From: Shinisaurus crocodilurus
Taxonomy: Eukaryota; Chordata; Lepidosauria; Squamata; Shinisauridae
Direction: 5' to 3'
Assembly (NCBI GenBank): GCA_021292165.1
Contig: CM037878.1
Span: forward strand, 10,904,857 to 10,968,856
DNA: 64,000 bases
Made by a program: the position numbers and the translations under genes. Position 1 is the stretch's first letter. Each line of letters begins with the position of its first letter. Below, piece after piece: positions 6,291 through 54,733 of this stretch. The notes under the pieces were generated by a model, which saw only the letters and a program-made list of their open reading frames with translations, was not told the DNA's origin and made no database searches.

Positions 6291-6425
6291 CAGCGTTCTC
6301 CAACCTTGGGTCCCCAGATGTTTTTGGCCTACAACTCCCAGCATGCCCCAGCCAGCGTAGCTGGCTGGGGCATGCTGGGAGTTGTAGGCCAAAAACATCT
6401 GGGGACCCAAGGTTGGAGAACGCTG
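6291..6425. mobile_element. 135-bp palindromic hAT-like MITE, copy 1
   Basis: The two arms of CAGYGTTCTCCAACCTTGGG...TACAACTCCCAGCATGCCCC are near-perfect inverses. The 8-bp duplication CTCTAGTA occurs at 6283-6290 and 6426-6433. It has no coding capacity, so it must have been moved by another element's transposase. Confidence 0.95.
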
Positions 6426-6450
6426 CTCTAGTAGGAGGCCAGGAAACATT

Positions 6451-6451
<1 letters not shown>

Positions 6452-6487
<36 letters not shown>
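6452..6487. repeat. (CA)n microsatellite
   Basis: A perfect run of ~18 CA units lies 19 bases beyond the MITE duplication. Confidence 0.98.
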
Positions 6488-6490
<3 letters not shown>

Positions 6491-6871
6491 CTTCACCATG
6501 ATGCTATGTCATCCTCGCTTTCTTTGATTACTCATCCCCAGATAAAAGGGAATCACCTCAATTCAACAAGAGCCCCCGTGACTCTTGACACCTTTTCAAA
6601 TTTGCCTCAAGCTCTGATTTTGCTCCTTGATTGAAATGTCCATCCATGGAGAAATGTTTCAATTGAAATGTCCATGGGGAAATGTTTGAAATGTCCATGG
6701 AGAAATGTCTCAAGCACTGTAAGCTCAGGAGGGACGAGTGCTCGTCCAAAGAGGCCCTCTTAAAGCACACGTGGCATCGGGGTAATAGGGGTGCACGGGG
6801 TCCCAGAAACCCAGCGAAATCTGATCCTCCATGGAAAGCTAACGGCGCGGCTTGTCTGCTTCTCCTTCCAG

Positions 6872-6974
6872 GTGATCTCCTCCGCGGACTGTGTGGTGGC
6901 CACTATCTGGAAGAAGTGGCCAGGTTTCAATGAAGCATGCAACATGGACCACGAGACCTTTGGAGTGGACTTGG
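6872..6974 (+). CDS. PLSCR-family gene, exon 5
   Basis: The exon has a strong acceptor (TCTGCTTCTCCTTCCAG) and leaves in phase 1 at GACTTGG|GTAGGA. It encodes VISSADCVVATIWKKWPGF, then NEACNMDHETFGVDL. The family equivalent is IKSLDEQCVVGKISKHWTG, then the Ca2+-binding loop DADNFGIQFPLD. The loop here keeps MDHETFG but lacks the first acidic position, so Ca2+ affinity may differ (inference). Confidence 0.88.
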
Positions 6975-7567
6975 GTAGGAACGTTCCCATACTCTTTCAG
7001 GCAGAGCTTAAAGCGGAGGCGCTGAACCTCTTTCAGCCTGAAGGCCAAAGTAAATTTCAGAGAAGCTCTCTTGGGGGCCGTATTCCAGTGGCGGGGGGGG
7101 GGGCAAAGGCAAAGAGTGTGGGGGCAACCCCCCCCCCAAAAAAAAACGCCAGCTGGAAGCTCTTGCTGCCAGTAACGAAGCCCTAGGAGAGGCATTTCAA
7201 CTTTCTGGGATGGGGGTGGGGTGGACTGCACAAAAGCCGGGAAACCACCAAGCTCCAGGTGTCTGGATTGGGCCCCAAGGCAGGCCGCCCGGAGAGCTTT
7301 GGCTCTTGGGTGGTATTGAAATGCAACAAATAAATATTTGGCCTGCGGGCCTAAAAATTCAACACTTGTGGCTTAAAGCATCCGGGGGTCCCTTGCGACT
7401 TGTACTTCCTGTTTGCTGTTATTGTCCTGATATCCTAAAATCAGCCTCTGGTAATTCACAAGTGCTGTTAGTGGGCAGATGTTGTGTATGCTACAATTGC
7501 CAGAGTCAGCCCTGTTCTAGTCCAATCGCCTCCGGCCCCCCATGCAGGATGCACCCACCACCTACAG

Positions 7568-7702
7568 CAGTGTTCTCCAACCTTGGGTCCCCAGATGTTT
7601 TTGGCCTACAACTCCCAGCATGCCCCAGCCAGCTATGCTGGCTGGGGCATGCTGGGAGTTGTAGGCCAAAAACATCTGGGGACCCAAGGTTGGAGAACAC
7701 TG
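7568..7702. mobile_element. 135-bp palindromic MITE, copy 2
   Basis: Near-perfect palindrome with 8-bp duplication ACCTACAG at 7560-7567 and 7703-7710. Confidence 0.95.
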
Positions 7703-7732
7703 ACCTACAGCATCGCTGGCAGAGAGCCGCCA

Positions 7733-8018
7733 CAGATCAGGACTAGAACAAATGGGTGGAAATGGCAGGAAAGTAGATCTCAGCTGAACTTTAGGTCAAA
7801 CTTCCTACCGGTAAGAGCGGCTCCACAGCGGAAGGGATGGTGCACACACACCCTCAGGAGGTGGTGGGTTTTTGTCACTGCAGGCATTTAAACGAAGGCT
7901 GGATAACCATCTCTCGGGGATGTTGCCATTGTAAGATTCCTGCGCTGAGCAGAGGGGCGAGACTAGATGTCCTCTAAAGTCCCTTCGAGCTCTCAAATTC
8001 TGTGATTCTGTCTCTGGC
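7733..8018 (+). mobile_element. CR1 LINE 3' end (old)
   Basis: A diverged CR1 C-terminal coding and 3' tail is visible: CAGGCATTTAAACGAAGGCT, CCTGCGCTGAGCAGAGGGGC, then TTCTGTGATTCTGT. Confidence 0.7.
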
Positions 8019-8019
8019 C

Positions 8020-9060
8020 ACTGAACGGCCGGGCACTCTAGCGCCCAAACTTGTGAATGCATATGCAGAGGGAGACACAAAATCTTCCAATACTTCCTTC
8101 TTATAGTCACCTAACCAGATTTTAGTTAACATTCCTGTATGTGTCTGAGCTCCAGCAATTTGTATAAGTACAGCCAGATCTATTGCGAGAGAAACAGCGG
8201 GGAAGAGCCTGGCAGCACATGAACAGATTTATTGCGTCGCAATGAGCGTTTGTGGAGGAGAGCCCACTTTATCAGCTGCATCAAATGCTACCCTTGGTGA
8301 AAACACTTCATGCATCTGACAAAGAGGACTCTCTTATCTATGGAGGCTTGTACCACAACCGGTCTGTTTGTCTTTGGGCTGCTCTACACGAGGCATTCAC
8401 TGTGCGCACGCGATTTCTCGCTCGTGGTAGTTTGAGGGTGCTTTACATGACGTCGTCATCCTCCAGGGCCTCTCCAGTGCTTTCCAAGGGTTTCTGCAGC
8501 TTTTTGCTTTTTTTTTTTTTTTTAGAGTGAGGAAAGTGTAGTATTATCTGGAAATGGCGGAATGAACTGGAATGAGAAGCTCGTGTATTTGCGCAATTGT
8601 GCTATACCGCAGCGCCACCTTGTGGTTGTGTAATGGAATGCATAGAAAGGCAGAGAAAGAAGAAAAAAGCTGGGGGCGGGGAAGCACATGTCAAGGAGCC
8701 AATCTTAATGTCGCGAAGAATCTGGACGCAGGAGCCTCGGTGAAGCGGTCCGGTTAAAAGCCTCATGCAAAGAAGCCCTCTAAGGTTCCGCCACCAGATG
8801 CATCGCCATTTTTGCTGTAACAGGCAGATTAACTGAGCTGCCCTCCTGGAATTGTGGAGATTAAACATTCTGTTGTTAAGTCTTCCTCAACAATCCCTGA
8901 GCAGTGAGACGTTCCAAAGGCAATGCTAGCTGTTTAGTTTCCTTGGGGGTGAGAGAGAACCTATCTGTGTCTTTGTACGGGTTGCTTTATTTACAAAGAT
9001 ACAAGCAGAGCACACTGGAAGCAAAAAGATACTTGGCCAGTGGGAGAAAGTCCACCGGCT
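8020..9060. other. unassigned scramblase intron DNA
   Basis: No exon, RNA gene or named repeat was seen here, apart from a T16 run near 8505-8524. Confidence 0.5.
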
Positions 9061-9061
9061 G

Positions 9062-9115
9062 TGCAATCCTATTCATGCCTATTCCAAAGTAAGCCTCGTT
9101 GAGTCCAGTGGGGCT
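9062..9115. mobile_element. fragment of GCAATCCTATGCATGTTTACTC element
   Basis: TGCAATCCTATTCATGCCTA, then AGTAAGCCTCGTTGAGTCCA, matches one arm of the PIF-like family seen more fully at 43146-43240. Confidence 0.5.
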
Positions 9116-9632
9116 CGCTTCCGCCTGAATGGGTATCGGATCAGATCCCCAGAGAGGATTCAAAGGCACTGTGCAGCTCCCTCTTTTCCTCCTGAACAGA
9201 TTTTTTTCCCCTTCTTCCTGGTAAGAGAAAAGATGGAAGCAGCAGCGGGGGATATATGGGAGGGTCACAGATGGAAAGTGTCATCATCTACAACCCCTGT
9301 GAAATTCTGTTTTTGAGTCAGGGCGGCTGCAGAATGAAAGCCCCAGCCCCGCCTGGAAGCGCCCTGCATCTAACTCTCCTGTCAGTTAAGCAGCAAAACT
9401 GGCTCCAGCCGTGTTTCTCTGCCCTGGCAGCTCTGTGAGGAATGTCACCTCTCCCAGACTCTGATGGGTCTTCTGTTCCAGAGACTAGACATATACCCAG
9501 CTCTTAAACTGTCAATCCGTCTCCGCTAAGATTTCTATGCTTAATCCTTTGATGTGTGGCTTGCTCCTTATCCATCCAACTCCTTTTGTTATGCTTTCCC
9601 CCCCCTTTCCTTTTTTTTTATTTTGGCCGCTA

Positions 9633-9716
9633 TCCTAAGCACACCTACTAGGGAGTGAGTCTCATTGGACACAGTGGGCCTTACTTCAGAGTAAACTTGC
9701 ATAGGATCATGCTGTT
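9633..9716. mobile_element. GCAATCCTATGCATGTTTACTC element
   Basis: CTATCCTAAGCACACCTACT...CAGTGGGCCTTACTTCAGAG TAAACTTGCATAGGATCATG matches the same short inverted-repeat family as 43146-43240. Confidence 0.5.
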
Positions 9717-9739
9717 AGTTCCTGTTCATGTTGTTCATG

Positions 9740-10231
9740 GTAGTTCCAGTCATGTTGTTCGAATGCCTGACTGCCGTCTCCCAAAGCAGTTACTTTATTC
9801 CCAACTCAAGGCTGGAAAGCGGAATATCGGTGGTCAGTATAAACGGTTTAAAGATGTTCATAAGGCTAATCTAAAAAAATGCAATATAAACATCGAGAAC
9901 TGGGAAGCTCTGGCCCATGAACGATCTAACTGGAGGTTGGCCTTTCACAAAGGCTCTATGGACTTTGAAGAAGCCCGAGAGCAAGGTGAAAGGGAGAAAC
10001 GTGCTAGGCGAAAAGCACCTCAAACGAATCCTTTACAGGACCATCTTCCATCTGGTAACCTGTGTCCTCACTGTGGGAAGCTGTGTGGATCTAGAATTGG
10101 TCTCCACAGTCACTTACGGACCCATCGCTGGAGTCTACACAATTTTCTTTAGAATTTCCTCCTTTTAAAATTTCCTTTTTGTAAATTTTTTTATCCTGGA
10201 AGACAATCTTACTCGGTCACGAGTGATCGCC

Positions 10232-10282
<51 letters not shown>
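9740..10282 (+). mobile_element. zinc-finger-ended non-LTR retrotransposon, 3' end (copy 1)
   Basis: The frame encodes HVVRMPDCRLPKQLLYSQLK, GGQYKRFKDVHKANLKKC and a C-terminal C2H2 finger (CPHCGKLCGSRIGLHSHLRT H), the C-terminus of a non-LTR retrotransposon ORF2. It ends with ACTCGGTCACGAGTGATCGC and a (TGA)n tail at 10231-10282. It is 5' truncated. The clade is uncertain. Confidence 0.8.
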
Positions 10283-10285
10283 GTT

Positions 10286-10362
10286 CCTGCACTGAGCAGG
10301 GGGTTGGACTCGTGACCTTATAGGCCCCTTCAAACTCTACTATTCTATGATTCTCATTCATT
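10286..10362 (+). mobile_element. CR1 LINE 3' tail
   Basis: CCTGCACTGAGCAGGGGGTT...CTATTCTATGATTCT is the CR1 terminus, here directly after the (TGA)n tail of the preceding LINE. Confidence 0.75.
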
Positions 10363-12055: not shown

Positions 12056-12077
12056 GACCTGAGATTACTCTGTGTGG

Positions 12078-13560: not shown

Positions 13561-13564
13561 TCAA

Positions 13565-14488: not shown

Positions 14489-14489
<1 letters not shown>

Positions 14490-15585: not shown

Positions 15586-16028
15586 CGGTGTTCTCCAACC
15601 TTGGGTCCCCAGATGTTTTTGGCCTACAACTCCCAGCATGCCCCAGCCAGCTACGCTGGCTGGGGCATGCTGGGAGTTGTAGGCCAAAAACATCTGGAGA
15701 CCCAAGGTTGGAGAACACTGTACTAGATGTTTACAATCCTGGTACAGAGAGTGATTCCTTCTTATCTGGGAACACAGACATACTGTCTTCTGCATGTTAG
15801 GATATTTTCACTAGCTCCACAAACTTTCAGCCTTCTGGAAGAACAGGCCGAGCTGACTGCGATTCAACCCCTGACACAGTTTATACATACATTCCTTCAC
15901 CCCAGCCAAGGTGAAAGATTGCTTCTTCGCAAGATTGCAGCGTCAACCATCTAGCTCAGGCTTCTGGCTGGGGCATGCTGGGAGTTGTAGGCCAAAAACA
16001 TCTGGGGACCCAAGGTTGGAGTACACTG
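15586..16028. mobile_element. composite palindromic MITE (1.5 palindromes)
   Basis: A full 135-bp palindrome (15586-15720) is followed by 243 bp of other sequence and then by a right half-palindrome (15964-16028). The outermost 8-bp flanks are identical: GTCTAATG at 15578-15585 and 16029-16036. The sequence right after the full palindrome (TACTAGAT) does not match. The whole 443 bp therefore behaves as one inserted unit. Confidence 0.75.
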
Positions 16029-18471: not shown

Positions 18472-18607
18472 TAGTGCTCTCCAACCTTGGGTCCCCAGAG
18501 TTTTTTGGCCTACAACTCCCAGCATGCCCCAGCCAGCGTAGCTGGCTGGGGCATGCTGGGAGTTGTAGGCCAAAAACCTCTAGGGACCCCAAGGTTGGAG
18601 AGCACTG
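18472..18607. mobile_element. 135-bp palindromic MITE, variant copy
   Basis: Near-perfect palindrome with GTGCTCTCCAACC ends instead of GTGTTCTCCAACC. GTCTAG flanks both sides, but the exact duplication is ambiguous. It lies ~320 bases upstream of the scramblase last exon. Confidence 0.85.
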
Positions 18608-19760: not shown

Positions 19761-19869
19761 CAGTGTTCTCCAACCTTGGGCCCCCAGATGTTTTTGGCCT
19801 ACAACTGGCTGGGGCATGCTGGGAGTTGTAGGCCAAAAACAGCTGGGGACCCAAGGTTGGAGAACGCTG
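19761..19869. mobile_element. palindromic MITE, centre-deleted copy
   Basis: The ends and arms are as in the 135-bp family, but 26 bp around the centre are missing. No matching duplication is present, so a flank was probably altered. Confidence 0.85.
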
Positions 19870-22710: not shown

Positions 22711-22845
22711 CAGCGTTCTCCAACCTTGGGTCCCCAGATGTTTTTGGCCTACAACTCCCAGCAGGCCCCAGCCAGCTACGCTGGCTGGGGCATGCTGGGA
22801 GTTGTAGGCCAAAAACATCTGGGGACCCAAGGTTGGAGAACACTG
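22711..22845. mobile_element. 135-bp palindromic MITE
   Basis: Near-perfect arms. The flanks GTCTATCT and GAATAGAA both have TA in the centre but do not match, so one side was altered after insertion. Confidence 0.9.
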
Positions 22846-26837: not shown

Positions 26838-26972
26838 CAGTGTTCTCCAACCTTGGGTCCCCAGAGGTTTTTGGCCTACAACTCCCAGCATGCCCCAGCC
26901 AGCTACGCTGGCTGGGGCATGCTGGGAGTTGTAGGCCAAAAACCTCTGGGGACCCAAGGTTGGAGAACACTG
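26838..26972. mobile_element. 135-bp palindromic MITE
   Basis: The duplication CTCTAGCC (26830-26837) / CTTTAGCC (26973-26980) matches at 7 of 8 bases. Both arms carry the same CCAGAGG variant (instead of CCAGATG). Confidence 0.93.
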
Positions 26973-28930: not shown

Positions 28931-29065
28931 CAGTGTTCTCCAACCTTGGGTCCCCAGATGTTTTTGGCCTACAACTCCCAGCATGCCCCAGCCAGCGTAG
29001 CTGGCTGGGGCATGCTGGGAGTTGTAGGCCAAAAACATCTGGGGACCTAAGGTTGGAGAACACTG
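28931..29065. mobile_element. 135-bp palindromic MITE
   Basis: Perfect 8-bp duplication TATTAAAG at 28923-28930 and 29066-29073. The right duplication overlaps the end of the neighbouring PIF-like element. Confidence 0.96.
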
Positions 29066-29067
29066 TA

Positions 29068-29198
29068 TTAAAGGCACAATCCTACGCATGTTTAGATGGG
29101 GGGGGGGGAAGTCCTCCAACTCCCAGCATTCCCCAGCCAGCTGCTGGAAATTGGAGGACTCTTTCTCCATCTAAACATGCATAGGATTGCACCCTAAG
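29068..29198. mobile_element. PIF/Harbinger-like MITE with palindromic core
   Basis: Ends AGGCACAATCCTACGCATGT TTAGA and TCTAAACATGCATAGGATTG CACCCTAAG; the core contains CCAACTCCCAGCATTCCCCA GCCAGC. The left end was invaded by the palindromic MITE. Confidence 0.8.
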
Positions 29199-29749: not shown

Positions 29750-29884
29750 CAGTGTTCTCCAACCTTGGGTCCCCAGATGTTTTTGGCCTACAACTCCCAG
29801 CATGCCCCAGCCAGCTACGCTGGCTGGGGCATGCTGGGAGTTGTAGGCCAAAAACATCTGGGGACCCAAGGTTGGAGAACACTG
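29750..29884. mobile_element. 135-bp palindromic MITE
   Basis: Perfect 8-bp duplication ACTTAGAA at 29742-29749 and 29885-29892, and almost no differences between the arms, so a recent insertion. Confidence 0.97.
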
Positions 29885-31402: not shown

Positions 31403-33685
31403 GTTCTGAGTAAACAGGAGGGGCCGTGGGTCAACAGCCCCCACCCATCCCGCACAACTGTAGCAAGATTTCTGAGTAACATAGAAGGCAAGAGCCCGGC
31501 TGGATCTTCTCCTTTTCAAGCCCCAACGAGAGCCGCTTGAGAGGACAGCTGTGCTCTTGCCGAGCTCCTGCTTGCTCCGACGGGGCTTGCTTTGCCAAAA
31601 TCCCCATCAAACTGTGCCGCGGAGTGTTTCCATAGCAATTCTAAGCCTCGGGAAGTTCAAAACAAAGAACGACACCTGATATTTTGATATGGGTCAACAA
31701 GTCACGGTGCTTGCACCCGGAGCCTCTCTCATGTTGGATCATGCAAGCACAGCAGGGGGTGAGGTTCACCTGAACCTCCTCACACGTTGAAAGAACAGGT
31801 TGTGGGGTTGCCCTGTGGGGTTTGCCCTGCTGACTGCACGAAGGGGAGCCATATGTGTACAAATGTACGTGCACAGAGCTCTTTGACGGGTTCCTTCTTC
31901 CTATGCTCATCAGGCACAGAAGTACTTCAAGCTCGGCACAGTTGGGGAAAGGGTCAAGCTGCTTCGACCAGCGGGAAATGCCCCACGGGTTCCATCTCTG
32001 CCGTCCTTTGAATGCTCCAGGCCTGGCACTGGAAGGGCGAGGATGGGAGCAGGGGCGCTGCAACGAAGGGGATGGAGAAAGGGAGAAGCAACGGGGCGGG
32101 GGCTCTCTGCCCATCTAACATCTTCACCTAGTCTGCAAGACTCGGTAATTAGAGCAAGAGAGGTCTGTCGATGGATATTGGCTTTTGGCTACAATAGCTA
32201 AACAGAACCTCAGGACCAGAGGCACTAGTCACTGGTGGACAGGCAACAGAGAAGGGTGCTGCCTTGCCTTGAGTGCGGATTTCCCAGAGAAATCTGGCTA
32301 GCTAAAGTTGAAAAAAAGAGGATTAACCAGAAAAGAGCTGGACTTCACTGTATAAAAATCAGGTGGTGTCCAGGCTTGTGCAGAAAACCTCCCGTGCTCA
32401 AGACAAGCAGAGAGTGCCGAGTTGGGCTTCTAGCCAAAGTATGGCTTCCCCCCCAACGCCCCAGTCCTACATCCCTGCAATGTCCCAGTGATCCCACTGC
32501 CAAAATCACCAACTTCACTCCTTTACAACAAAATCGATGGTGTTTTGCTCTTTTTTTTTTTTTTAAAGCTGTCCATATTTTGTTGCCAAAAACAAACACT
32601 CAAGTACATTTAAGCAAGATCCGTTTAACTCCGATGATTTATCTCAGTCACAAATTTTAGTTCTGTCAACTTGAGATTTAGCTGGGGAATCCTAGATATT
32701 CTGGCAAAGCGGAAAGCCCCAGAACGGCGCTCAGTGTCTTATCTTGACTTGCCACATGGCTTGGGGTGGGATTCAGCTCTACCAAAACTACCAGCCCCCT
32801 CCTCTGAAGGCCCAACCATGCAAGATGCGTGAAGGCTGAGCGGGTTCTCAGTAAGCATACCACCTGGACGCCATCAAGTGCTTTATATGAGACGGGATAA
32901 AAATATTCCCGGTGCTGGGGTGGATAAGGGCTATTCACTTTCTGTGTCCTATTTAGCCACTGGCCTCTCTGCACAGGCTGTCAAGGGGGCCCAATGAAAT
33001 CCTGCTGCGATGGGGCTTAATTAAGGAGCACATTGACTCAAGCTGGCAGCCCTTCAGTCAGTTTGCGTCTTCCCCTTCTCCGGGAGCTTGTGAGCCCCCT
33101 TTCTCTCTGCTCCTCTAAATGTGGATGGGCAAGAGATCAATCCCATCCCCCCCCGAGGGACTACTTCAGCGAAGAAGCAAAACCCTCCACCCCACCGCAC
33201 CAATCAAGAGCGGCTGAAACCAGCCCTTTGGCTTGAACCCCTGTAGACAGAGAGGGATTTGCAAGGATGGCTGACCATGAACGCAACAGATCCCAGAGCT
33301 TAAATATGTCCGATTCCTGGGTTGAGCACATCCCTACCTTCTCCAGCAAATACGACTGAAAACCTCTCCCAGGGTTGCTGGAGGAGAGAAGAGAGACGGA
33401 GGACTTGGCCGAAAGCTCTTCGCCCCAGTCCGATAAGTGCCGCGATGGCTACCAAGGGCAGGCTGGGGCTGGAGAAGCATTCCTACATGGCTCCCGTGGG
33501 GAATAAAAAGTGCAGCCGCCGAAGGCTGGCGGCAACTGGGCTGAACGGCCAACGTTGACTGGCCTGCGTGGGTGTTTTGGGAGTTCATATGCACATGGCG
33601 GTACTGTGGGATCTCACCACAGGAGAAGTGTCGCCCTCACCACAAACGGAATTACGGCACCTGGTCGTGTGACCCCCACAAAGGG
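31403..33685. other. unassigned intergenic DNA
   Basis: No exon, RNA gene or named repeat was recognised over ~2.3 kb. A T14 run lies near 32552. This is the longest apparently repeat-free stretch between the scramblase and EIF4E2 genes. Confidence 0.4.
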
Positions 33686-35926
33686 AAGGCCCAGGTGAAT
33701 CAGGCTATCCTTGACCTGATTCTAACCAACAGAGACGAGTTAGTGGATAAAGTGGCAGTTTCGGGAACTCTGGGGGAAAGTGACCATGTTATACTTGAGT
33801 TCTTGATTCTAACGGAAGCAAAAGCTGAGTGTAGCCAAACACGTACCCTGGATTTTAGGAAAGCCAATTTTAACAAACTCAGAACAATGATTAGTAAGAT
33901 CCCATGGCAAGTGACTCTCACGAGAAAGGGAGCCCAGGAGGGGTGGGAGTTTTTAAAAAAGGAAATTTTAAAGGCACAATTGCAAACAATTCCCAAAAGG
34001 AAAAAAGGCAGAGGGCAACAGAAGAAGCCAATGTGGCTTCACAATAAACTCAAAGACGACCTGAAAACAAAAAAGGACACGTATAGGAAGTGGAAGGAAG
34101 GACAGGCTACAAGTGAAGAGTACAGGCAGGTAGCACAGAACTGCAGGAATAGTGTCAGGAAGGCTAAAGCTGAGAATGAGCTAAGGTTAGCGAGGAATGC
34201 TAAAAGCAACAAAAAAGCTTTCTTCAGATACATGCACAGTAAAAGACAGAAGAAAGAACTGGTGGTTCAACTACGCAATGAGGATGGCAAATTGATAACA
34301 GAAGACAAAGAAAAGGCAGAAGTGTTCAATTCCTACTTCGGCTCGGTCTTCTCCCAAAAGAGGGTCTATGACCCCCCTGGCAAACCTGAAGTGCAGACTG
34401 AAGGGGCAGGATTGCAGCTTGAGATTAATAGGCAAATGGTCAAGGAGCACCTGATTACTCTGAACGAGTTTAAATCTCCAGGGCCTGATGAGCTGCATCC
34501 TAGAGTAATAAAGGAACTGGCAGAAGAACTCTCAGAACCACTGTCTATTATCTTTGAGAAATCATGGAGGACAGGTGAAGTGCCAGACGACTGGAGGAGG
34601 GCAAATGTTGTTCCCATCTTCAAAAAGGGCAAGAAGGAGGAACCTGGGAACTATAGGCCAGTCAGTCTGACATCAATCCCCGGGAAGATTTTTGAGCAGA
34701 TTATAAAGAAGTCAGTCTGCAAGCACCTTGAAAACAATGCAGTGATTACTAGAAGCCAGCATGGATTTGTCAAGAACAAATCCTGTCAGACTAATCTGAT
34801 CTCATTTTTTGATCGGGTAACCTCCCTTGTGGACTGTGGGAATGCTGTGGACATTATATATCTGGACTTCAGCAAAGCTTTCGACAAAGTGCCTCATGAT
34901 ATCCTGATTAGTAAGCTAGCTAAGAGTGGGCTAGATGGAACAACTATCAGGTGGATCCACAACTGGCTACAGAATCGGACTCAAAGAGTGCTTATCAATG
35001 GTTCCTTCTCAAACTGGGGAGAGGTAACGAGCGGGGTACCACAGGGCTCGGTCCTGGGCCCGGTGCTCTTCAACATTTTTATTAATGACTTGGATCAGGA
35101 GGTACGGGGAATGCTTATCAAATTTGCAGATGACACAAAGTTGGGTGGAACAGCTAATACTCTGGAAGACAGAAACAAAATTCAAAGTGACCTCGATAGG
35201 CTGGAGCGCTGGGCCGAAAACAACAGAATGAAATTTAATAGGGATAAATGCCAAGTGCTGCACCTAGGGAGAGGAAACCAAATGCAGAGTTACAGAATGG
35301 GGGACACTTGGCTCAACAATACTACAAGTGAGAAGGATCTTGGAATTGTGGTAGATCACAAACTGAATATGAGCCAGCAATGCGATGTGGCTGCAAAGAA
35401 GGCAAATGCAATTTTGGGCTGTATTAATAGAAGTATAGCTTCCAAATCGCGGGAAGTGATAATTCCCCTTTACTCGGCACTGGTTAGGCCTCATCTTGAG
35501 TACTGCGTCCAGTTCTGGGCACCACACTTTCAGAAGGATGTAGACAAACTGGAGAGGGTTCAGAGGAGGGCAACAAAGATGATAAAGGGACTGGAAACAA
35601 GGCCCTATGAGGAGAGACTGAAAGAACTGGGCATGTTTAGCCTTCAGAAGAGGAGACTGAGGGGAGATATGATCGCACTCTTCCAGTATTTGAAGGGATG
35701 TCACACAGAGGAGGGCAAAGATCTCTTCTCGATCATCCCAGTTTGCAGGACACGGAATAATGGGCTCAAGTTACAGGAACCTAGATTCCACCTAAACATC
35801 AGGAAAAATTTCCTGACTGTCAGAGCAATAAGACAATGGAATCAACTACCTAGGGAGGTTGTGGGCTCTCCCACTCTGGAGGCATTCAAGGTGCAGCTGG
35901 ACAGCCATCTGTCAGGGATGCTTTGA
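33572..35926 (+). CDS. CR1 ORF2 (endonuclease-truncated reverse transcriptase)
   Basis: The 784-codon frame has ~42 non-CR1 residues, then the endonuclease C-terminus (LDLILTNRDELVDKVAVSGT LGESDHVILE), then reverse transcriptase. Motifs in order: NYRPVSLTSIPGKIFEQIIK (~res 358), YLDFSKAFDKVPHDI (~430), GVPQGSVLGPVLFNIFINDL (~490), FADD (~518-521, catalytic), then the CR1 C-terminal domain (YSALVRPHLEYCVQFWAP, ...NQLPREVVGSPTLEAFK). The TGA is at 35924-35926. Without most of the AP-endonuclease it cannot move autonomously. The true CR1 start codon is missing, so ATG 33572 is only the frame's first ATG. Confidence 0.9.
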   Translation: MFWEFICTWRYCGISPQEKCRPHHKRNYGTWSCDPHKGKAQVNQAILDLILTNRDELVDKVAVSGTLGESDHVILEFLILTEAKAECSQTRTLDFRKANFNKLRTMISKIPWQVTLTRKGAQEGWEFLKKEILKAQLQTIPKRKKGRGQQKKPMWLHNKLKDDLKTKKDTYRKWKEGQATSEEYRQVAQNCRNSVRKAKAENELRLARNAKSNKKAFFRYMHSKRQKKELVVQLRNEDGKLITEDKEKAEVFNSYFGSVFSQKRVYDPPGKPEVQTEGAGLQLEINRQMVKEHLITLNEFKSPGPDELHPRVIKELAEELSEPLSIIFEKSWRTGEVPDDWRRANVVPIFKKGKKEEPGNYRPVSLTSIPGKIFEQIIKKSVCKHLENNAVITRSQHGFVKNKSCQTNLISFFDRVTSLVDCGNAVDIIYLDFSKAFDKVPHDILISKLAKSGLDGTTIRWIHNWLQNRTQRVLINGSFSNWGEVTSGVPQGSVLGPVLFNIFINDLDQEVRGMLIKFADDTKLGGTANTLEDRNKIQSDLDRLERWAENNRMKFNRDKCQVLHLGRGNQMQSYRMGDTWLNNTTSEKDLGIVVDHKLNMSQQCDVAAKKANAILGCINRSIASKSREVIIPLYSALVRPHLEYCVQFWAPHFQKDVDKLERVQRRATKMIKGLETRPYEERLKELGMFSLQKRRLRGDMIALFQYLKGCHTEEGKDLFSIIPVCRTRNNGLKLQEPRFHLNIRKNFLTVRAIRQWNQLPREVVGSPTLEAFKVQLDSHLSGML

Positions 35927-36383: not shown

Positions 36384-36518
36384 CAGTGTTCTCCAACCTT
36401 GGGTCCCCAGATGTTTTTGGCCTACAACTCCCAGCAGGCCCCAGCCAGCGTAGCTGGCTGGGGCCTGCTGGGAGTTGTAGGCCAAAAACATCTGGGGACC
36501 CAAGGTTGGAGAACGCTG
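36384..36518. mobile_element. 135-bp palindromic MITE
   Basis: Perfect 8-bp duplication CCGTAAAG at 36376-36383 and 36519-36526. Both arms share the CAGGCCCC variant (instead of CATGCCCC). Confidence 0.97.
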
Positions 36519-37281: not shown

Positions 37282-37422
37282 TAAGGCATAATCCTATGCA
37301 TGTTTGGACAGAAAAAAGCCCTACAACTCTCAGCATTCCCCAGCCAACAATGCTGGCTGGAGAATGCTAGGAGCTGTAGGACTTTTTTTCTGTCTAAACA
37401 TGCATAGGATTACGCCCTTAGG
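37282..37422. mobile_element. PIF/Harbinger-like MITE with palindromic core
   Basis: Ends TTAAGGCATAATCCTATGCA TGTTTGGACAG and CTGTCTAAACATGCATAGGA TTACGCCCTTA; TTA on both sides. Core: CCTACAACTCTCAGCATTCC CCAGCCA. Positions 36745-37280 and 37425-38095 hold nothing else I can name. Confidence 0.85.
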
Positions 37423-40109: not shown

Positions 40110-40229
40110 CAGCGTTCTCCAACCTTGGGTCCCCAGATGTCTTTGGCCTACAACTCCCAGCATGCCCCAGCCAGCATGCTGGGAGTTGTAGGCCAAAGAC
40201 ATCTGGGGACCCGAGGTTGGAGAACACTG
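40110..40229. mobile_element. palindromic MITE, 120-bp form
   Basis: Perfect 8-bp duplication CTCTGGAG at 40102-40109 and 40230-40237. The centre is shortened by 15 bp, and both arms carry CAGATGTCTTTGG, a shared private variant. Confidence 0.96.
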
Positions 40230-42877: not shown

Positions 42878-43012
42878 CAGTGTTCTCCAACCTTGGGTCC
42901 CCAGATGTTTTTGGCCGACAACTCCCAGCATGCCCCAGCCAGCTACGCTGGCTGGGGCACGCTGGGAGTTGTAGGCCAAAAACATCTGGGGACCCAAGGT
43001 TGGAGAACACTG
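42878..43012. mobile_element. 135-bp palindromic MITE
   Basis: Perfect 8-bp duplication GTTTAGGA at 42870-42877 and 43013-43020. Confidence 0.97.
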
Positions 43013-45222: not shown

Positions 45223-45342
45223 CAGTGTTCTCCAACCTTGGGTCCCCAGATGTTTTTGGCCTACAACTCCCAGCATGCTGGCTGGGGCATGCTGGGAGTT
45301 GTAGGCCAAAAACATCTGGGGACCCAAGGTTGGAGAACACTG
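45223..45342. mobile_element. palindromic MITE, centre-shortened
   Basis: Arms as in the 135-bp family, missing 15 bp at the centre. The flanks TGCTAGGC and GGCTTTTG do not match. Confidence 0.9.
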
Positions 45343-45509
45343 GGCTTTTGGGTCTGATCTAGCAGCGATGGGTCTATGGCTCCATCACACTTAGACTTCC
45401 CAACACCTTCAAGTACACCCAACCATCCTGTGTCCCGGCCTAAAAACTGTGTCTACTTCCAGCCTCCAGCAGCGAGTGGAGCTTTTGAAAAGCCGCCTTT
45501 TCCCTGAAA

Positions 45510-45642
45510 GCAGGGCTTGGGCACCTGTGGCCTGCCAGGTGGTGTTGAACTACAACTCCCATCAGCTCCAGCCATCATGGTTGATGGTCAGGGTGATGGG
45601 AAATGTAGTCCAACAACATCTGGAGGGATGCAGGTTCCCCAC
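45510..45642. mobile_element. old palindromic element
   Basis: GGGCACCTGTGGCCTGCCAG GTGGTGTTGAACTACAACTC CC and its inverse GGAAATGTAGTCCAACAACA TCTGGAGGGATGCAGGTTCC CC. Confidence 0.7.
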
Positions 45643-45701
45643 CTCTATTTGGAAAGCATCCAGAACTACTCTGCGTCAAAGACCGGGGTGTTGGCCTAAA
45701 A

Positions 45702-45837
45702 CAGGAGTGGACAACTTGTGGCCCTCCATATGTTTTGTCCTACAATTCCCATCAGCCCTAGCCCGTGTAGCCAAAGGTGAGGGATCATGGGGGTTGTAGG
45801 CCAAAACATCTGGAGGGCCACAAGTTGCCCACCCCTG
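45702..45837. mobile_element. hAT-like palindromic element (CAGGGGTGGGCAACTTGTGG type)
   Basis: CAGGAGTGGACAACTTGTGG CCCTCCATATGTTTTGTCCT is answered by GGCCAAAACATCTGGAGGGC CACAAGTTGCCCACCCCTG. The flanks GCCTAAAA and ATCTAAAC match at 5 of 8 bases. Confidence 0.8.
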
Positions 45838-45842
45838 ATCTA

Positions 45843-46790
45843 AACGGAAGATTGGCCTGACCCAGTTGGTCTTCTCTTCTGTGTTCTTGTGCACTTCACT
45901 TCAAACTTACCCCAGGGATGTCAGGTGGGAAATCTTGGTGTTTGTGTAGCCCTGGGGAAAGCTTGCTGAACAGGTTTGGTGCACCGAAACTCCATGGAAT
46001 GGGAGCACAGGTGTCTAAATTGCAACCTAGCCAAAGAAGGTGTGGTAGGGGAGAGAATTCAGTAGTGTTACGGTTAGCCCTCTTCTCCGGCTCCCATATG
46101 TCTGTATTCGGCTTTCTTCTTTTGCCAGCCGAATGGGGCCCTTGCCCCTTTCTAGCAGCCTAGCTGAGGTTCTTAACTGAAAGCGAGTAGAAGTTGGAAT
46201 GACCGGGTTCTACTAAGAAGCGGCTAGTAAAAGTCACAAGTAGGAGCTGCAACAAGAAGTTGCAGTGTGGTGCGCTCCTATTCAGTGTCGCGCCTTCTTT
46301 CAGGGTAGTCCGTTCCATTCCACTTCCGAAATTAGGATTCTGTGGACACTGAGCATGCTTAATTCCCATTGGGCTGTTTGCAGGGGAGTGAGTGGGGTTT
46401 TTTTTTGCCCTCTTAGAGTTTTTTCCTCGAGTTTTTTTCTCCTTTTGCAAACCTTGGGGTTCCTTCAAGCTTACAGATTCCTCCCTCTTGTTTCTCAGTA
46501 GCCCCCAATTTGGCTGCATCACAACTCGGCAGTTGAGTTCACTCTTAGCATAGACAGCTGGAGCCTGTAACAAAATGTTGCAGCATATCCCGGGTGTGGC
46601 TGCGGGGGCTGGAAAGGCTAAACTTAGCATCCAAGGCAGGAGGAGACCCTGCTTTTAACTTGGGTCTTAGTTCACGTGCAAAGTATCTTTACTGAATTAG
46701 TTTGTTAACACTTAAAACTGCAACCGGTCTGCATGTAAAGCGATGGAGCCTGAGGCTTCTAGGTGCAAGTGAGTGCTTGATATGGCCTAG
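45843..46790. other. unassigned EIF4E2 intron 3 DNA
   Basis: No exon or named repeat is visible in this stretch. Confidence 0.4.
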
Positions 46791-46792
46791 CA

Positions 46793-47177
46793 CAGTGTTC
46801 TCCAACCTTGGGTCCCCAGATGTTTTTGGCCTACAACTCCCAGCATGCCCCAGCCAGCATAGCTGGCTGGGGCATGCTGGGAGTTGTAGGCCAAAAATAT
46901 TTTTTAATTTTTATTAATTTATTACATTTATACCCCACCTTTTTTCCTGCAAGGAACCCAAGGCGGCTTACATAATCCTCCTCCTCCTCTCCATTTTTAT
47001 CCTCACAACAACCCTGTGAAGTAGGCTAGGCTGAGAGCCAGTGACTGGCCCAAAGTCACCCAGTGAGTTTCATGGCTGAGCGGGGACTAGAACCCGGATC
47101 TCCCGAGTCCCAGTCCAACACTCTCACCACTACGCCACACTGACTCCCATCTGGGGACCCAAGGTTGGAGAACACTG
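46793..47177. mobile_element. 135-bp palindromic MITE split by a SINE
   Basis: The left end is at 46793 and the right end at 47177. The right arm is interrupted after GGCCAAAAA at 46897 by a SINE and resumes ATCTGGGGACCC at 47149. The outer flanks (GCCTAGCA and CAAAAGCC) do not match exactly. Confidence 0.92.
46898..47148 (-). mobile_element. Sauria-type tRNA SINE nested in a palindromic MITE
   Basis: Read on -, GGGAGTCAGTGTGGCGTAGT GGTGAG (A box), GGTTCTAGTCCCCGC (B box), body, CCTTGGGTTCCTTGCAGG and the AT-rich tail. It is full length and nearly consensus. It dates the MITE as older than this SINE insertion. Confidence 0.93.
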
Positions 47178-47715: not shown

Positions 47716-47724
47716 CACACACAA

Positions 47725-47890: not shown

Positions 47891-47982
47891 TCCCCATCTC
47901 TTTCCACGTGCAGGTAAGACACGCACATGCCCAAGTGACACTGAATCCACTTAAACAAGCGACACAACAGAAATGCACTCAC

Positions 47983-49463: not shown

Positions 49464-50957
49464 TTACAGTCGCTTCTTTTTACACCATCAAATTTAAAAC
49501 ACCTTCTTTTGCGATTTTAAAAGCGCAAAGTCATGGGTGGTGTCGTCAAATGATAAGCTACGAAGGTAATCGTTTTCTATGCACATAATGCTTAGTGCAG
49601 ACAGCTTTTCTTGCAGTTCGTTCTTAATCCTGTTCAGCTGCAAAAATGACCTTTCTCCTCAGCAGTTTGTTACCATTAGCTTCAAGATGAGCTGCAATAT
49701 CACTTCTACATTAGGGAAAGCTAACTGAATCTTATGTCCGGATACAGATTCTGGTGGCCTAAGTGTCCTTTATCTGAATAATTTTGCTTGATATAAGCAT
49801 GGAAGTGCTTTATTTCCCCCACCAAGGTCGATATCAACATTGTCAGGCTAGTCTTTCATCAAAAGGTTCTGAGGCTTTTAAATCAACCAAAAATGTAAAT
49901 CTTTTTGCAACATTATCATATATGATTGCTCTTTTCTTCAAGTTGACTTCAAGGGCATTCATTATTAGAATAAAGGATTTTACATGAAATTTGTCTCTTG
50001 GGGAAAACCTTTCATCAGTATTAGCTGCACCACCATCACAGACTTGCTTGTTTTTCACTCTTTTTCTTTTATTCACATACTTGCTTGATTTGACATGAGG
50101 CAGGTTTCCTTTCACTTTGAGTTCAATTTCATCAAAACTCTCTGGTTTCTTTCACAAAGTGATAGAGCAATGTGTTAAGCTTGCACATGTGCTACGGACA
50201 ATCCGTGGATTCTGTAGGGCCTTGCTGATTTTGTGGAAATGATTTAACAAACAATTCCAAAGTTCTAACATGAACACAAACTCTAATTCTTCCATTTCCT
50301 CCAGAAGAATGCAAGCTTCTCTTCCTGTATAACCTTTTTCACTGTCATTAGTGAGGATATGAGTAAAAGCATCAATAATTGAATTATAACTCATAGCTAT
50401 AGCTGAAGTAGCCTTTGCATGCGCTTCCCACCTAGTGTCAGACAGATGTTTTAGTACTGTGGATTCTGGACCCAAGAGTGATTTGAGTACTGTCCAGCAT
50501 TTAATAGAGACCAAGAAGAAAGTGTATATTTGTTGCACAACAGCAACAAAATGTACTGCAGTTAGGCAGCAATCAACTGCAGCACGACCAACAAGATTCA
50601 ACAAATGTCTAGTACATGGAATATGTACAGCTTACTTCTTTTTCTCTAGGAGTTTTTGCTGCATGCCATTATATCTACCTGCCATGTTACCTGGATTATC
50701 ATATGATTGTCCTCTGCATTTAATGAAGTCAACTTTGCAGTCATTGCTCAGATAATCCAGCACTTTGTTGGCCATACTTTCACAACTATGATCTTCTAAG
50801 TCAAGGAAACTTAGAAAGCGTTCAGTAGGAAAACCATCATTAGGTGATACGTATCTTACAATAATAGTTGATCAACATGGGAAAGATCTGGGGTAGAGTC
50901 AATAGACAAACTGAAGTCTCCTGCTTTTCTCAAATCATCCAAAACAGATTCTCTCAC

Positions 50958-51380
50958 AGGGCAATCCTATGGCTGTTAGACAGTGTCTAGACAACCATAG
51001 GATTTTTCGGATTCCCAGCTATGAGGTCAGAAAATTGCTGCGATCGGACCTCATAGCTGGGAAAGAACCACACAGGCTACTTCTCTGAGGTCGCAAAAGC
51101 AAACTTGGAGAAGGGGCTTAGTGGGAAGTCTGGGGGGCAGGGAAGGGAGGAGACTGGAGCTGCCAAGATACGACGTATCCTGGTGGCACTTCAGCCTTCC
51201 TTCCCTCCCTCCCCAAAAGCACAGCACATAGACGAAATCGGCCGGCCATCTAAGTGCTTTGCAGAGTGAGAGGAGTGTGGAGGTGACCTTCACCTTCACA
51301 CACCTCCAGCCCGTCATAGGATGCCCGTAATCCTCAGAGTTTGGAAAGTTACGGCCGGGCATCCCCATAGGATTGTGCCT
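50958..51380. mobile_element. PIF-like element interrupting the hAT transposase
   Basis: Ends AGGGCAATCCTATGG and CCCATAGGATTGTGCCT. The transposase reading resumes cleanly on both sides (TQLMAAKK | ESVLDDLRKAGDFSLS). Interior includes the inverted pair TTCCCAGCTATGAGGTC / GACCTCATAGCTGGGAA. Confidence 0.8.
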
Positions 51381-51930
51381 TTACTTTTTTAGCAGCCATA
51401 AGCTGGGTGACTTCATCACATATTGTTTTGGACAAGTATGCAAGCTTTCCAGATCCACTGCTTCCATGCTTTATATGGTTGGCAAGAAATGGATCAAACT
51501 TAACAATGAATTCTATCAAGTTCCCATTATGTGGTGAACCAAACTATTCATTGCCACCGCTAAAAGCCAATCCACGTTTCGCCAGTGTGCACACAACTGC
51601 AAGTGACAAGTTCAAGTACACGCCTCTAGTACTCTTGCTCCTTTTTTATCTGTTCCTCCAAGCGTGAATCCAAGGTTAAACCACACGGCCTCGTCAAATA
51701 CATAAGCAAAGCTGTTCTGTGATCCTCAGAGTTCTCCTGCTTTTGAATTCCAATGGAGTCTTGCTAGTCATTAAACCCGTAATTAGCAAATGCTGTCATT
51801 GATGGTGTTGAAAAGAGCTTGCAGACAAAGCAGTAAACACAACTGGTTGCTGAAGAATATACTACCCACTCCTGATTGTATTTTTCACCATTAGCTTTTC
51901 CTGAATGAAATAGACCTTTTGAACAATATC

Positions 51931-52056
51931 TAAGGGCACAGTCCTATGCATGTTTAGACAGAGAAAAAGGCCTACAACTCCCAGCATGTCCCAGCTGGGG
52001 AATGCTGGGAGTTGTAGGCCTTTTTTCGGTCTAAACATGCATAGGATTGCACCTTA
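51931..52056. mobile_element. PIF-like MITE with palindromic core, inside TTF domain
   Basis: Ends TAAGGGCACAGTCCTATGCA TGTTTAGACAG and CTAAACATGCATAGGATTGC ACCTTAA, TAA both sides. Core CCTACAACTCCCAGCATGTC CCAGC. It splits the transposase zinc-finger region. Confidence 0.88.
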
Positions 52057-52259
52057 AATCAGTTTTTGAATAATGGCTTCGATTTCTCAAATGAGCTATT
52101 CCAGTGTTGACACTCTGAGGGACCTTTCTGTGTCCAGAATGAAATTTCACCCTCAGTCAAGACACCCCAGAGACTAAGGTCACTGAACCTTGTGCATCTA
52201 TTTCCTTCCGCTCCGTAACATTCTCATGTGTACTGGTCACATTCTGATTCATATCTGTA

Positions 52260-52542
52260 CAGTAATACCTTGGATTGCAAGCATAATTCCTTCCGGAAAC
52301 ATGCTTGTTATCCAAAGCACTTGCATATCAAAGCGAAATTCCCCATAAGAAGTTTGTAACACATATTTTTAATTTAAGCTGCAATAAAGAATGATAGTGT
52401 AAAGTCTTCATTTTTCTTGACCGTACTACAGTACTTGTATTGCAAGACGTCGCTTGTTTATAAAGTTAAATTTTATTTTAAAAATGTGCTTGTCTTGCCA
52501 AACACTTGCAGACCAAGTTACTTGCAATCCAAGGTTTTACTG
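52260..52542. mobile_element. Tc1/mariner (Tigger-like) MITE, copy 2
   Basis: CAGTAATACCTTGGATTGCA AGC and GCAATCCAAGGTTTTACTG, TA both sides; inserted in the N-terminal part of the transposase pseudogene. Confidence 0.9.
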
Positions 52543-53298
52543 TATAAACTATCCCAGTAGAAGTGGATGCCTGTGGTTGTTGCGGACCTGGCTGACTCCC
52601 TTAGTTTGAGGTCCCTTCTCCATAGCTGTAATGAAGTAACTGTCAAGTTTCGATTTTTTTTTTAACTGCCTTTCAAGTTGCTGCTGCTTCTTTCTCTTCT
52701 GACATCCATTTTCAAAAGTTGTCTTCATTGTTAAAGTTAAATTTTTGCTTTGCCAACAATACTATAAAAGTAGTCTTTAAAATGGTCTTCAGATTAGATA
52801 AATAGGCCCCCGCCCTCCCGTGGTGTTGTAGTGGGCGAGCTGCACGCTGGGAGTTGTAGTTAGAGGCATGGAAGGAAGCTGGGAAGAAGAGGAAGTGAGA
52901 GGGCAGAGCCAGAGTTGTTGGAGCGCGGCCAGATGGATTAGTTTTCAGTTTTGCTAAGCTCCTGAAGTAAAGAAGCTTCAAGTCCTTCTCTCCGGTAGCT
53001 TTCTGGCTACAGGCCTCTGGGGTGGTATACGGAGAAGTGGCGAGATTAGCAGAGATGATGCCTGGTGTGGAACGGGGCTTTAGAATGTGTTGGTAGGCTA
53101 GCTCCCATCGCCTTCTCTTGAGGTCTGAGGTGAGGTTGGGCAACCTGTAGATGATGCGAGTAGTCCAGCAGCCCTGGAAGGGAAGTTGATGGGACTGGGG
53201 ATGGAAGGGGAGGAGGAGCTCAGGGTTTAGAATTTTGGTGGTGGATTTTATATGAAAGCTTATTTAACCCAAAGTGATTTCAATTATAATAAATCTTC

Positions 53299-53440
53299 TT
53301 AAGGCGCAATCCCACGCAAGTTTAGAGGGGGGGGGGGGAAGGCCTACAACTCTCAGCATGCCCCAGTCAGCATAGCTGCCTGGGGCATGCTGGGAGTTGT
53401 AGGCCTTTTTCTGTCTAAACTTGCATGGGATTGCACCTTC
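53299..53440. mobile_element. PIF-like MITE with palindromic core
   Basis: Ends AAGGCGCAATCCCACGCAAG TTTAGA and TCTAAACTTGCATGGGATTG CACCTT; its core CCTACAACTCTCAGCATGCC CCAGTCAGC is closest to the 135-bp palindrome. Near the right end of the hAT element. Confidence 0.88.
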
Positions 53441-53533
53441 AGTTATCTCCAACATATTTAGAGGCGCCTCAAATATGAGGCCCCAAGCCATGGCTTACTT
53501 GGCTTGTTCCTAAATCTGGCACTGGAGGATAAC

Positions 53534-54396
53534 GGGTTTTAAAAGAAAACAACACCACAGGAAAATCTATTCCCACTCTGCGCAAGGGAAACGGATGGAA
53601 GCAAGGTGATTCAAAGATCTCTACACGGAGTTCTCAAGTGAGCCAACAAAGGAAAATGTTGGCAATTTGTACAACATTGTAATAATGGAGTTCACCTTCT
53701 GGCATTGCCAGGTCAAAATGCCAGCAAACGCAACTCCCAGTAAACCAAGGGAAAAACAGGAGAATCTGGTTTTTACCCTCTCCCTCCCCAGAAACAGCTG
53801 CCAGGAAATGACTCTAAGTCCAGAAGGAATCAGTGGGTCTCTGTGGGCAATTCTTGCGCCTCTGGTGTCCCCTCCCTCCCCGCCCAGGTGGGACCCCTCT
53901 CACTGGGGCCAGGGCACTGGTTCTCTCTTTTTGCCAGCTGTCTCCCCAGGTTCAGCACTTTGCTTGCTCTGGTGAATGGCTTCTATCACTTTACTGTAGA
54001 AAAGTAAAGGAATGCACTGGAAAGAGGCTAACCCTGGGTGATCCCAGCAACCGAGATCCAAGTTCGCTCGTATCTAGCCCCAGCCTGGGTTCAGCTTCTT
54101 GGGTACACTCGGGTGTGATGAAACCTTGGTTGCCAGCTTTTATAGACAACTAGCAGAATACCCATTACTCCGAGATGGGGAGGAAGAGCGTCCGCATGCT
54201 TCAGGGAGGCAGAGGAATGAGCCTCAGTGTGCTCTGCTTTTCTGAGTGCCCATCAACATTATTCTCCTTCTCAATTACAGCCCATCTCTTTTGCCCCACA
54301 GAACTTCACGGGATCCATGGAAACTCAAGCCTGATCCTCTCTGCGTCGCCTCGGTCCTTCATCTACATAGTCACCTTGGAATCCATTTCTTGGTCA
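53534..54396. other. unassigned EIF4E2 intron 2 DNA
   Basis: Nothing recognised beyond ordinary intron sequence. Confidence 0.45.
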
Positions 54397-54404
54397 TGCT
54401 AGAG

Positions 54405-54733
54405 CAGTGTTCTCCAACCTTGGGTCCCCAGATGTTTTTGGCCTACAACTCCCAGCATGCCCCAGCCAGTGTAGCATGCTGGGAGTTGTAGGCCAAAAAC
54501 ATCTGGGGTCCCAAGTTGGAGAACACTGAGCTATCCCATCCACAGGTTGGAGAACACTGAGTCCAAAAACATCTGGGGTCCCAAGGTTGGAGAACACTGA
54601 GCTATCCCATCCACAGGTTGGAAATCATGTTTTTGGCCTACAACTCCCAGCATGCCCCAGCCAGCATAGCTGCCTGGGGCATGCTGGGAGTTGTAGGCCA
54701 AAACATCTGGGGACCCAAGGTTGAAGAATACTG
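54405..54733. mobile_element. composite palindromic MITE (two palindromes plus tandem unit)
   Basis: One palindrome (54405-54528), a ~70-bp tandem unit (GAGCTATCCCATCCACAGGT TGGAGAACACTGAG...) and a second palindrome (54630-54733) lie between identical outer flanks TGCTAGAG at 54397-54404 and 54734-54741. The inner boundaries lack duplications. Confidence 0.85.

Follow-up and report, generated by a model that had tools for sequence, protein, structure and literature searches.

Abortive gap repair after the excision of plant transposons of the Ds type leaves products with internal rearrangements, intact outer target-site duplications (TSDs), and filler from the neighborhood of the template. 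In Drosophila, the nnnTAnnn TSD consensus of Mar has been taken as evidence for the Buster group (PMC3517528), and the defective copies of Galileo have been ascribed to gap repair with abortion, slippage, or template switching (PMC4168063), according to the portions of these two articles drawn on here. Could one arm of a palindromic element likewise serve as the template for its partner? Here, we analyze a window of 64,000 nucleotides from Shinisaurus crocodilurus (assembly GCA_021292165.1, contig CM037878.1; G000:C3:10904857-10968856 in our numbering), which is populated by copies of a palindromic miniature inverted-repeat transposable element (MITE). We find that the two arms of a copy are homogenized, and that copying has drawn on the opposite arm and on other copies and has run past arm ends into flanking DNA.

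The element is a 135-bp palindrome of two 66-bp arms around a 3-bp center (66 + 3 + 66), which reads TAC or GTA in 27 of 47 sampled full-length copies. The consensus arms give the ends CAGTG...CACTG, in agreement with the CAG... terminal inverted repeats that we take to be of hAT type. The CAGTGTTCTCCAACC end has 38 matches in the window with at most three mismatches, compared with 2.66 expected and with 8 in the largest of 100 shuffles; these fall into 15 insertions, apart from a few that are older or due to chance. An earlier reading of this stretch, made from the sequence only, had counted about 17 copies. There are indeed 17 palindromic units but only 15 insertions, since matching outer 8-mers show 15586-16028 (GTCTAATG) and 54405-54733 (TGCTAGAG) to be single elements. 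The swarm is genome-wide, with 110,098 exact 15-bp ends (55,124 + 54,974) in 2.19 Gb, or about 50 per Mb, compared with 2 for the reversed control; yet the window (22 exact ends) and its 264-kb neighborhood (65) are about 5–7 times denser. The 20-bp pieces of the arm that were searched had no exact match in the viral and prokaryote collections.

The sequence examined comprised the window, 200 kb of neighborhood, and 88 short loci, which take in 91 of 100 listed places of contig C1. The C1 places were located through the exact left end, which biases that arm toward the consensus. A profile search for copies with both outer ends present, a score of 25 bits or more for each arm, and a gap of at most 80 bp between the arms returned 110 palindromic copies in 109 sequences, with 23 sequences lacking any; copies with weaker arms or without one end fall outside these counts. 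Four C1 segmental-duplicate copies were removed, leaving 106 copies for analysis. On C1, the regions at about 0.59-0.85 Mb and 0.90-1.17 Mb of G000:C1 are a segmental duplication or uncollapsed haplotypes and hold parallel MITE copies (L003/L030, L004/L031, L005/L032, and L007/L034; also L029/L035).

The two arms of one copy disagree at 183 of 6,309 positions (2.90%), whereas arms from different copies disagree at 4.57%. We observed 57 variants that occur in both arms of the same copy, distributed over 28 copies, whereas random re-pairing of arms gave a mean of 2.88 and a maximum of 18 in 20,000 trials. When per-site frequencies were used, 3.51 coincident substitutions were expected and 53 were observed. 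Even the 29 copies without a TSD had an excess (9 shared variants against 0.82). With four divergent copies set aside, 24 of 102 copies have one two-arm variant or more, and these amount to 19 distinct variants (TCT8-10 counted once), most of them seen in a single sampled copy. The arm homogenization proposed by the sequence-only reading is therefore real: that reading would have been contradicted by arms as far apart as copies or by a genome-wide lack of TSDs, and the 106 copies gave neither.

How does DNA move between arms and loci? Eight composite elements carry matching outer TSDs (8/8 in seven, 7/8 in one) around extra arm pieces and foreign DNA. They are as follows, listed without strand assignment (window positions unless a contig or locus is named):

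15586..16028, 443-bp composite: outer TSD GTCTAATG; left arm, right arm (15655-15720), captured flank (15721-15963), second right arm (15964-16028)
15721..15963, 243 bp of captured DNA within that element: matches, in reverse complement, the left flank of the MITE copy L023:9153-9231, which lies on the same contig at a distance of 117 kb
54405..54733, 329-bp composite: outer TSD TGCTAGAG
C3:10874692-10875178 (487 bp) and C3:10895302-10896091 (790 bp), composites in the C3 neighborhood
L110:2516-2793 (278 bp), composite: last base of the right end altered; outer TSDs AGCTATAA
L104:41-319 (279 bp), L114:2043-2254 (212 bp), and L116:2028-2399 (372 bp), composites at other loci

In these elements, the foreign DNA starts at an inner arm end, and its first 8 bp carry TA at positions 4-5 for 10 of the 11 distinct inner ends, so the foreign DNA nearly always resembles the flank of a MITE insertion. 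In 54405..54733, two inner arm ends are followed by AGCTATCCCATCCACAG; the third, a 17-bp stub at 54543-54559 followed by AGTCCAAA, is the exception among the 11. Two sources at other loci are clear. The 243-bp capture is identical to the L023 flank at 233 of 240 aligned bases, with one 3-bp gap, and the L110 element carries an exact 74-bp stretch of the right-hand flank of L061, a copy that lies at a distance of 237 kb and has the same rearranged center. Both donor loci continue into unrelated DNA at the point where the composite has a further MITE arm. A weaker match (15/17) links the 17-bp AGCTATCCCATCCACAG piece to the right flank of the 790-bp composite, ~63 kb upstream. The captured pieces span 15 to about 600 bp, and the final arm restarts at or just past the palindrome center in the 443-bp, 487-bp, L110, and L116 composites. 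Among the 32 TSD-verified elements of the 264 kb, 4 are composites, 1 (512 bp) is split by an apparent retro-insertion, and 27 are simple or shortened; composites on C1 are undercounted because longer flanks were examined at only a few loci.

Furthermore, two composites contain their own flank in inverted orientation. Beyond an inner arm end of L116 lie 65 bp that reproduce, without a mismatch and in reverse complement, the left flank of that same element, and in the 487-bp composite, an inner arm end is followed by 151 bp of inverted own left flank, 144 of them identical. This would be the exact trace expected if the left arm templated the right arm, overshot the end, and returned to the element, and it gives direct support to the snap-back or arm-to-arm synthesis that the sequence-only reading had put forward. 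Other elements have lost an arm. In L068/L112, perfect TSDs enclose a left arm with two additional bases and no right arm, and the right arm of L091 is reduced to about its last ten bases, with the TSDs intact. At L082 (G000:C1:2304550-2305000), a TSD and a half-element form a tandem array with a 79-bp unit, possibly the birth of a satellite out of a one-arm repair product. The 29 copies without a TSD have TA-type flanks on both sides in 11 cases, on one side in 14, and on neither in 4; 7 of the 11 copies with two different TA-type flanks are parts of composites, and the remaining four (22711 in the window and copies in L022, L066, and L099) may be hybrids. Inverted TSDs in L100 and L103 were considered as proof of snap-back and discarded, as their self-complementary 8-mers (CTATAG) fit shifted direct duplications. 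Some centers grow in 5-bp steps of TATGC or GTAGC repeats (e.g., L023:7966-8120, L106, and L096), as if synthesis had slipped at a hairpin tip.

The remaining window copies, apart from one neighboring pair described below, are the following (again without strand):

6291..6425, 135-bp palindrome: TSD CTCTAGTA, 8/8; C at arm position 4 in both arms
7568..7702, 135-bp palindrome: TSD ACCTACAG, 8/8; identical arms
18472..18607, 136-bp palindrome: left end damaged; right flank GTCTAGAT; C6 and G29 in both arms
19761..19869, 109-bp copy: center deletion; no TSD
22711..22845, 135-bp palindrome: differing nnnTAnnn flanks GTCTATCT / GAATAGAA; discordant arms; possibly a hybrid of two copies or a piece of a rearrangement
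26838..26972, 135-bp palindrome: TSD CTCTAGCC/CTTTAGCC, 7/8; G29 (AGAGG) in both arms
28931..29065, 135-bp palindrome: TSD TATTAAAG
29750..29884, 135-bp palindrome: TSD ACTTAGAA; identical arms
36384..36518, 135-bp palindrome: TSD CCGTAAAG; G54 in both arms
40110..40229, 120-bp copy: 15-bp center deletion; TSD CTCTGGAG; C32 in both arms
42878..43012, 135-bp palindrome: TSD GTTTAGGA

Three of these copies had been credited with variants private to them, and as a set the variants are not private. AGAGG (G29) of 26838 recurs in both arms of 18472 and in 62 copies genome-wide in the form searched, and CAGGCCCC of 36384 is also present in one arm of 22711; the two-arm state of TGTCTTTGG, on the other hand, is confined to 40110 among the 106 sampled copies. 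Among those 106, G29 was found in 3, in both arms each time. A genome-wide count, limited to copies with a TAC center and an otherwise exact inner 87 bp, gave G29 in both arms of 62 copies, in the left arm only of 3, and in the right arm only of 8. With at least 62 copies in the AGAGG subfamily, two-arm states are also transmitted via transposition, and fresh homogenization in every copy is therefore unnecessary. Of the copies counted, we inspected every left-only one (3) and 17 of the 62 two-arm ones. At least 7/8 bases of the TSD match in 11 of the 17, and 5 carry a further two-arm change (C21, C13, G13, C12, or A16); two of the 17 hold indels, which were left unrealigned. The left-only copy L129 has G13 in both arms and G29 in one. 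These results indicate that the G29 lineage repeatedly converts one-arm into two-arm changes and then passes them on. The one-arm G29 copies may be recombinants, although the TSDs of the three left-only copies (2/8, 7/8, and 6/8) point neither way.

The neighboring pair of MITEs in the window has swapped flanks:

45223..45342, left MITE of the putative inversion, no strand: flanks TGCTAGGC / GGCTTTTG
45343..46792, 1,450-bp segment, apparently inverted between the two MITEs, no strand
46793..47177, right MITE of the putative inversion, no strand: flanks GCCTAGCA / CAAAAGCC; right arm split by a SINE-like insertion (about 46901-47147), presumably tRNA-type and Sauria-SINE-like, of a kind that points to a squamate host

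Reversing the 1,450 bp (45343-46792) restores perfect TSDs, with TGCTAGGC flanking one MITE and CAAAAGCC flanking the other, and one of these 8-mers lacks the TA that most TSDs share. The swapped duplications thus imply that the segment would have been inverted in the window. This conclusion is drawn because both ends of one neighboring pair match, not from one match alone, just as the captured flank in 15586-16028 is established by its 243-bp alignment. As a general signal of inversion, exact inverted 8-mer matches between element ends were rejected, since 3 were seen in the 264 kb and ~2.1 are expected from random nnnTAnnn sites.

At the exact ends of the 106 copies, a TSD matches at 7/8 bases or more in 68 and at 6/8 in 8; it is shifted in 1 and absent in 29. 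TA occupies positions 4-5 in 61 of the 68 duplications, in keeping with the Buster consensus nnnTAnnn, and the preferred bases around it are almost mirror-symmetric (C/T at position 3, G/A at position 6), with a bias to CTAG. The eight window TSDs quoted by the sequence-only reading hold up (seven at 8/8; that of 26838 at 7/8), as does its count of TA at positions 4-5 in seven of the eight, compared with a background TA frequency of 0.042. The GTATTAC consensus of Galileo and the P superfamily does not fit these 8-bp nnnTAnnn duplications. The 68 TSD-bearing copies thus agree with the hAT-type, Buster-like assignment made earlier, and the family appears to be a high-copy palindromic hAT MITE that is Buster-like by target site only, because no transposase with these ends was found in 12 3' flanks. 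hAT transposase genes with long open frames are present on many contigs: 24 of the 150 hAT entries scored reach at least 700 codons, and several have about 840-885, although some of these may be host genes. The 3' flanks of two hAT gene sets hold CCCACGCTACGCCACTG and GCACCGGCCCTG, which resemble other hAT ends.

Taken together, we consider it probable that breaks in or at the ends of these MITEs are repaired by synthesis from any MITE arm, with a template switch that tends to fall near the palindrome center. The breaks would come mainly from excision by transposase, as the one-arm products end exactly at the TSD and long-frame hAT transposase genes are present. Repair would then draw on sister or ectopic copies through synthesis-dependent strand annealing and abortive gap repair. 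Use of the opposite arm as the template would make both arms identical; synthesis past the arm end would capture flank; synthesis halted at the center would leave one arm; and exchange with another copy would give hybrids and inversions. Repaired copies that retain two good ends could transpose, and their two-arm variants would spread as subfamilies. More tentatively, and with somewhat less than even confidence, we suggest that the palindrome acts as its own spare copy, in that each cycle of excision and repair rewrites one arm from the other or from an arm elsewhere. The family would then evolve as a population of single arms that stays near-palindromic without selection for pairing, and it would copy thousands of host pieces and generate small inversions across the genome.

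Several observations weigh against repair from any arm as the general explanation. One-arm variants are the majority (204 against 57 two-arm variants), as expected of copies still mutating after insertion. Two-arm variants also spread by inheritance, as G29 does, so the 57 give no rate per transposition, and the one-arm G29 state exists in ordinary copies too (one with a 7/8 TSD). Three of the 19 two-arm variants are one-base homopolymer gains at hot spots that are also hit in single arms. A full-length hAT with these ends, which the sequence-only reading had suggested looking for, was not among the 12 hAT 3' flanks inspected of the 150 hAT dimerization domains scored. Fillers were traced to other loci in two of the eight composites and to their own flank in two, and most fillers are without a source; none was found for the 790-, 279-, and 212-bp elements, the left filler of the 487-bp element, or the first filler of the 372-bp element, and no genome-wide search was made for these. 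The composites are known from the assembly only. Moreover, cruciform or hairpin breakage, or replication slippage, could initiate the same repair. Finally, among the later differences between four segmentally duplicated pairs of copies, none of six is two-arm, and homogenization in place is therefore not frequent. Single-copy arm variants were accordingly dropped as proof of in-place conversion, both on this ground and because G29 proved to be a subfamily.

Would hairpin template switching during replication (quasipalindrome correction) in resting copies, without any transposase, make both the homogenized arms and the composites? Such switching has been described for inverted repeats, in the parts of PMC8604942 and PMC8794818 drawn on here. 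Length changes do cluster at the center: 59 of the 106 copies depart from a length of 135 bp, and an approximate rule, which overcounts the center (at least 5 of its 58 cases retain full length), gives 58 center changes and 19 arm indels, so that a hairpin or cruciform may break at the center. The two-arm variants themselves are not concentrated there. They fall in the outer, middle, and inner thirds of the arm as 16/13/3, compared with 61/57/48 for one-arm variants (P 0.024), with three TCT copies supplying nine of the 16 in the outer third. Together with the zero of six later differences, this fits the rewriting of long arm stretches at particular events and speaks against a continuous hairpin-tip process in resting copies, although the data are few. 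In addition, the one-arm products stop exactly at the TSD, pointing to a break at the element end, and flank from 117 and 237 kb away calls for an ectopic template, which is less natural for a local hairpin. We therefore regard this process as an unlikely account of the whole. Plain subfamily inheritance, in which a few source elements long ago gained the same change in both arms and ordinary copies are nothing special, seems slightly less likely still. It accommodates G29 in both arms of 62 copies on many contigs and TCT8-10 in both arms of 3 copies of the C3 neighborhood, but it is hard to reconcile with 19 different two-arm variants over 24 of 102 copies, mostly in single copies, with the further two-arm changes on the G29/G29 background, or with the own-flank copies joined to an arm, which demonstrate arm-to-arm copying; and it still requires a process that makes both arms alike.

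The composites raise two further alternatives. They could be nested insertions or macro-transposons, in which the stretch between neighboring MITEs moved as a unit, and their intact outer TSDs do look like those of a single insertion. However, neither donor locus has a MITE arm at the second side of the captured flank; the 487-bp composite, the only one with inner ends on both sides, has differing inner 8-mers (GATTAAAG and GTCTATAG), unlike a nested duplication; and inverted own-flank copies are impossible by macro-transposition, which makes this origin improbable. We give even less credence to assembly error. Some 110,000 near-identical ends would favor mis-joins, and no base separates the captured flank from its source in L110 (74 bp) or L116 (65 bp). 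On the other hand, the other two captures differ from their sources by 7/240 and 7/151, and are therefore old, the outer TSDs match, and captures of 15 to about 600 bp fit well within a long read. Repair from any MITE arm is the reading that we prefer.

These results touch two old questions, namely the near-identical arms of palindromic MITEs and the high copy number and internal change of MITEs that move by cut-and-paste. Tens of thousands of small palindromic elements reside in this vertebrate-sized genome, and their halves appear to be copied from each other. The preserved copying errors, some with their sources, reveal the repair template, whether own arm, other copy, or other locus, and ~110,000 exact ends in one genome constitute a large natural record, from an animal, of how palindrome breaks are repaired, with flank capture and inversion among the outcomes. 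Extended to the whole genome, the 4 of 32 would amount to thousands of captured host fragments, a figure extrapolated from a single dense region of 264 kb.

A second palindromic family with different ends (...GCAATCCTATGCATGTTTAGACAG...) occurs in the window at 29077-29189, 37289-37412, 51939-52049, 53307-53433, 55478-55601, and 59777-59870, with three further copies in the 264 kb. The arms of the nine copies are 14.1% apart within and 18.8% apart between copies (P about 0.001). An inner core of ~30 bp is common to this family and the hAT MITE, with an exact match of 26 bp in one arm of 53307, as though the families had exchanged cores. The core CCTACAACTCCCAGCATGC at consensus arm positions 38-56 of the hAT MITE closely resembles what we take to be the vertebrate ZNF143/THAP11 promoter motif, giving two putative sites per full MITE; nothing relevant to it was among the literature matches listed. 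The window also holds a 793-codon open frame at 33545-35926 (+) with a reverse transcriptase domain (PF00078), which is presumably CR1-like.

How does the present MITE compare with described systems? Among the literature matches listed (titles and abstract starts, with subscription literature mostly outside), none combined arm homogenization and flank capture in a palindromic MITE. The eight composites share with plant Ds-type products the intact outer duplications and the internal filler from a template flank; here, in addition, the palindrome lets one arm template the other, giving inverted own-flank copies and identical arms. Mar is likewise a non-autonomous hAT MITE with 8-bp nnnTAnnn TSDs of the Buster group, but the copy number is far larger here, no transposase with these ends was found here, and the terms 'palindrom' and 'gap repair' do not occur in the main text of the Mar article (PMC3517528). 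Galileo resembles the present family as an inverted-repeat element of highly variable structure that causes inversions by ectopic recombination; it differs in belonging to the P superfamily, in its 7-8 bp TSDs with the consensus GTATTAC (D. willistoni), and in not being a 135-bp palindrome, and arm-to-arm copying with flank capture is absent from the portion of that article examined (PMC4168063). For the zebrafish Angel MITE, as told in PMC12628747, intrastrand pairing and a stem-loop amplification step were proposed; this is a model of whole-element amplification, and arm-to-arm repair with flank capture does not appear in the portion examined. The hAT-derived MITEs at inversion breakpoints of Atlantic cod (PMC12368964) are also substrates of inversion by ectopic recombination, but, from the part of that article seen, these are large inversions with long tandem MITE arrays, whereas the putative inversion here spans 1.45 kb between two single copies and is recognized from swapped TSDs. 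Inverted-repeat template switching in yeast genes and RNA hairpins, as given in PMC8604942 and PMC8794818, similarly copies one arm into the other until the two are identical; it concerns short inverted repeats in genes, whereas here the palindrome is mobile and its copies spread.

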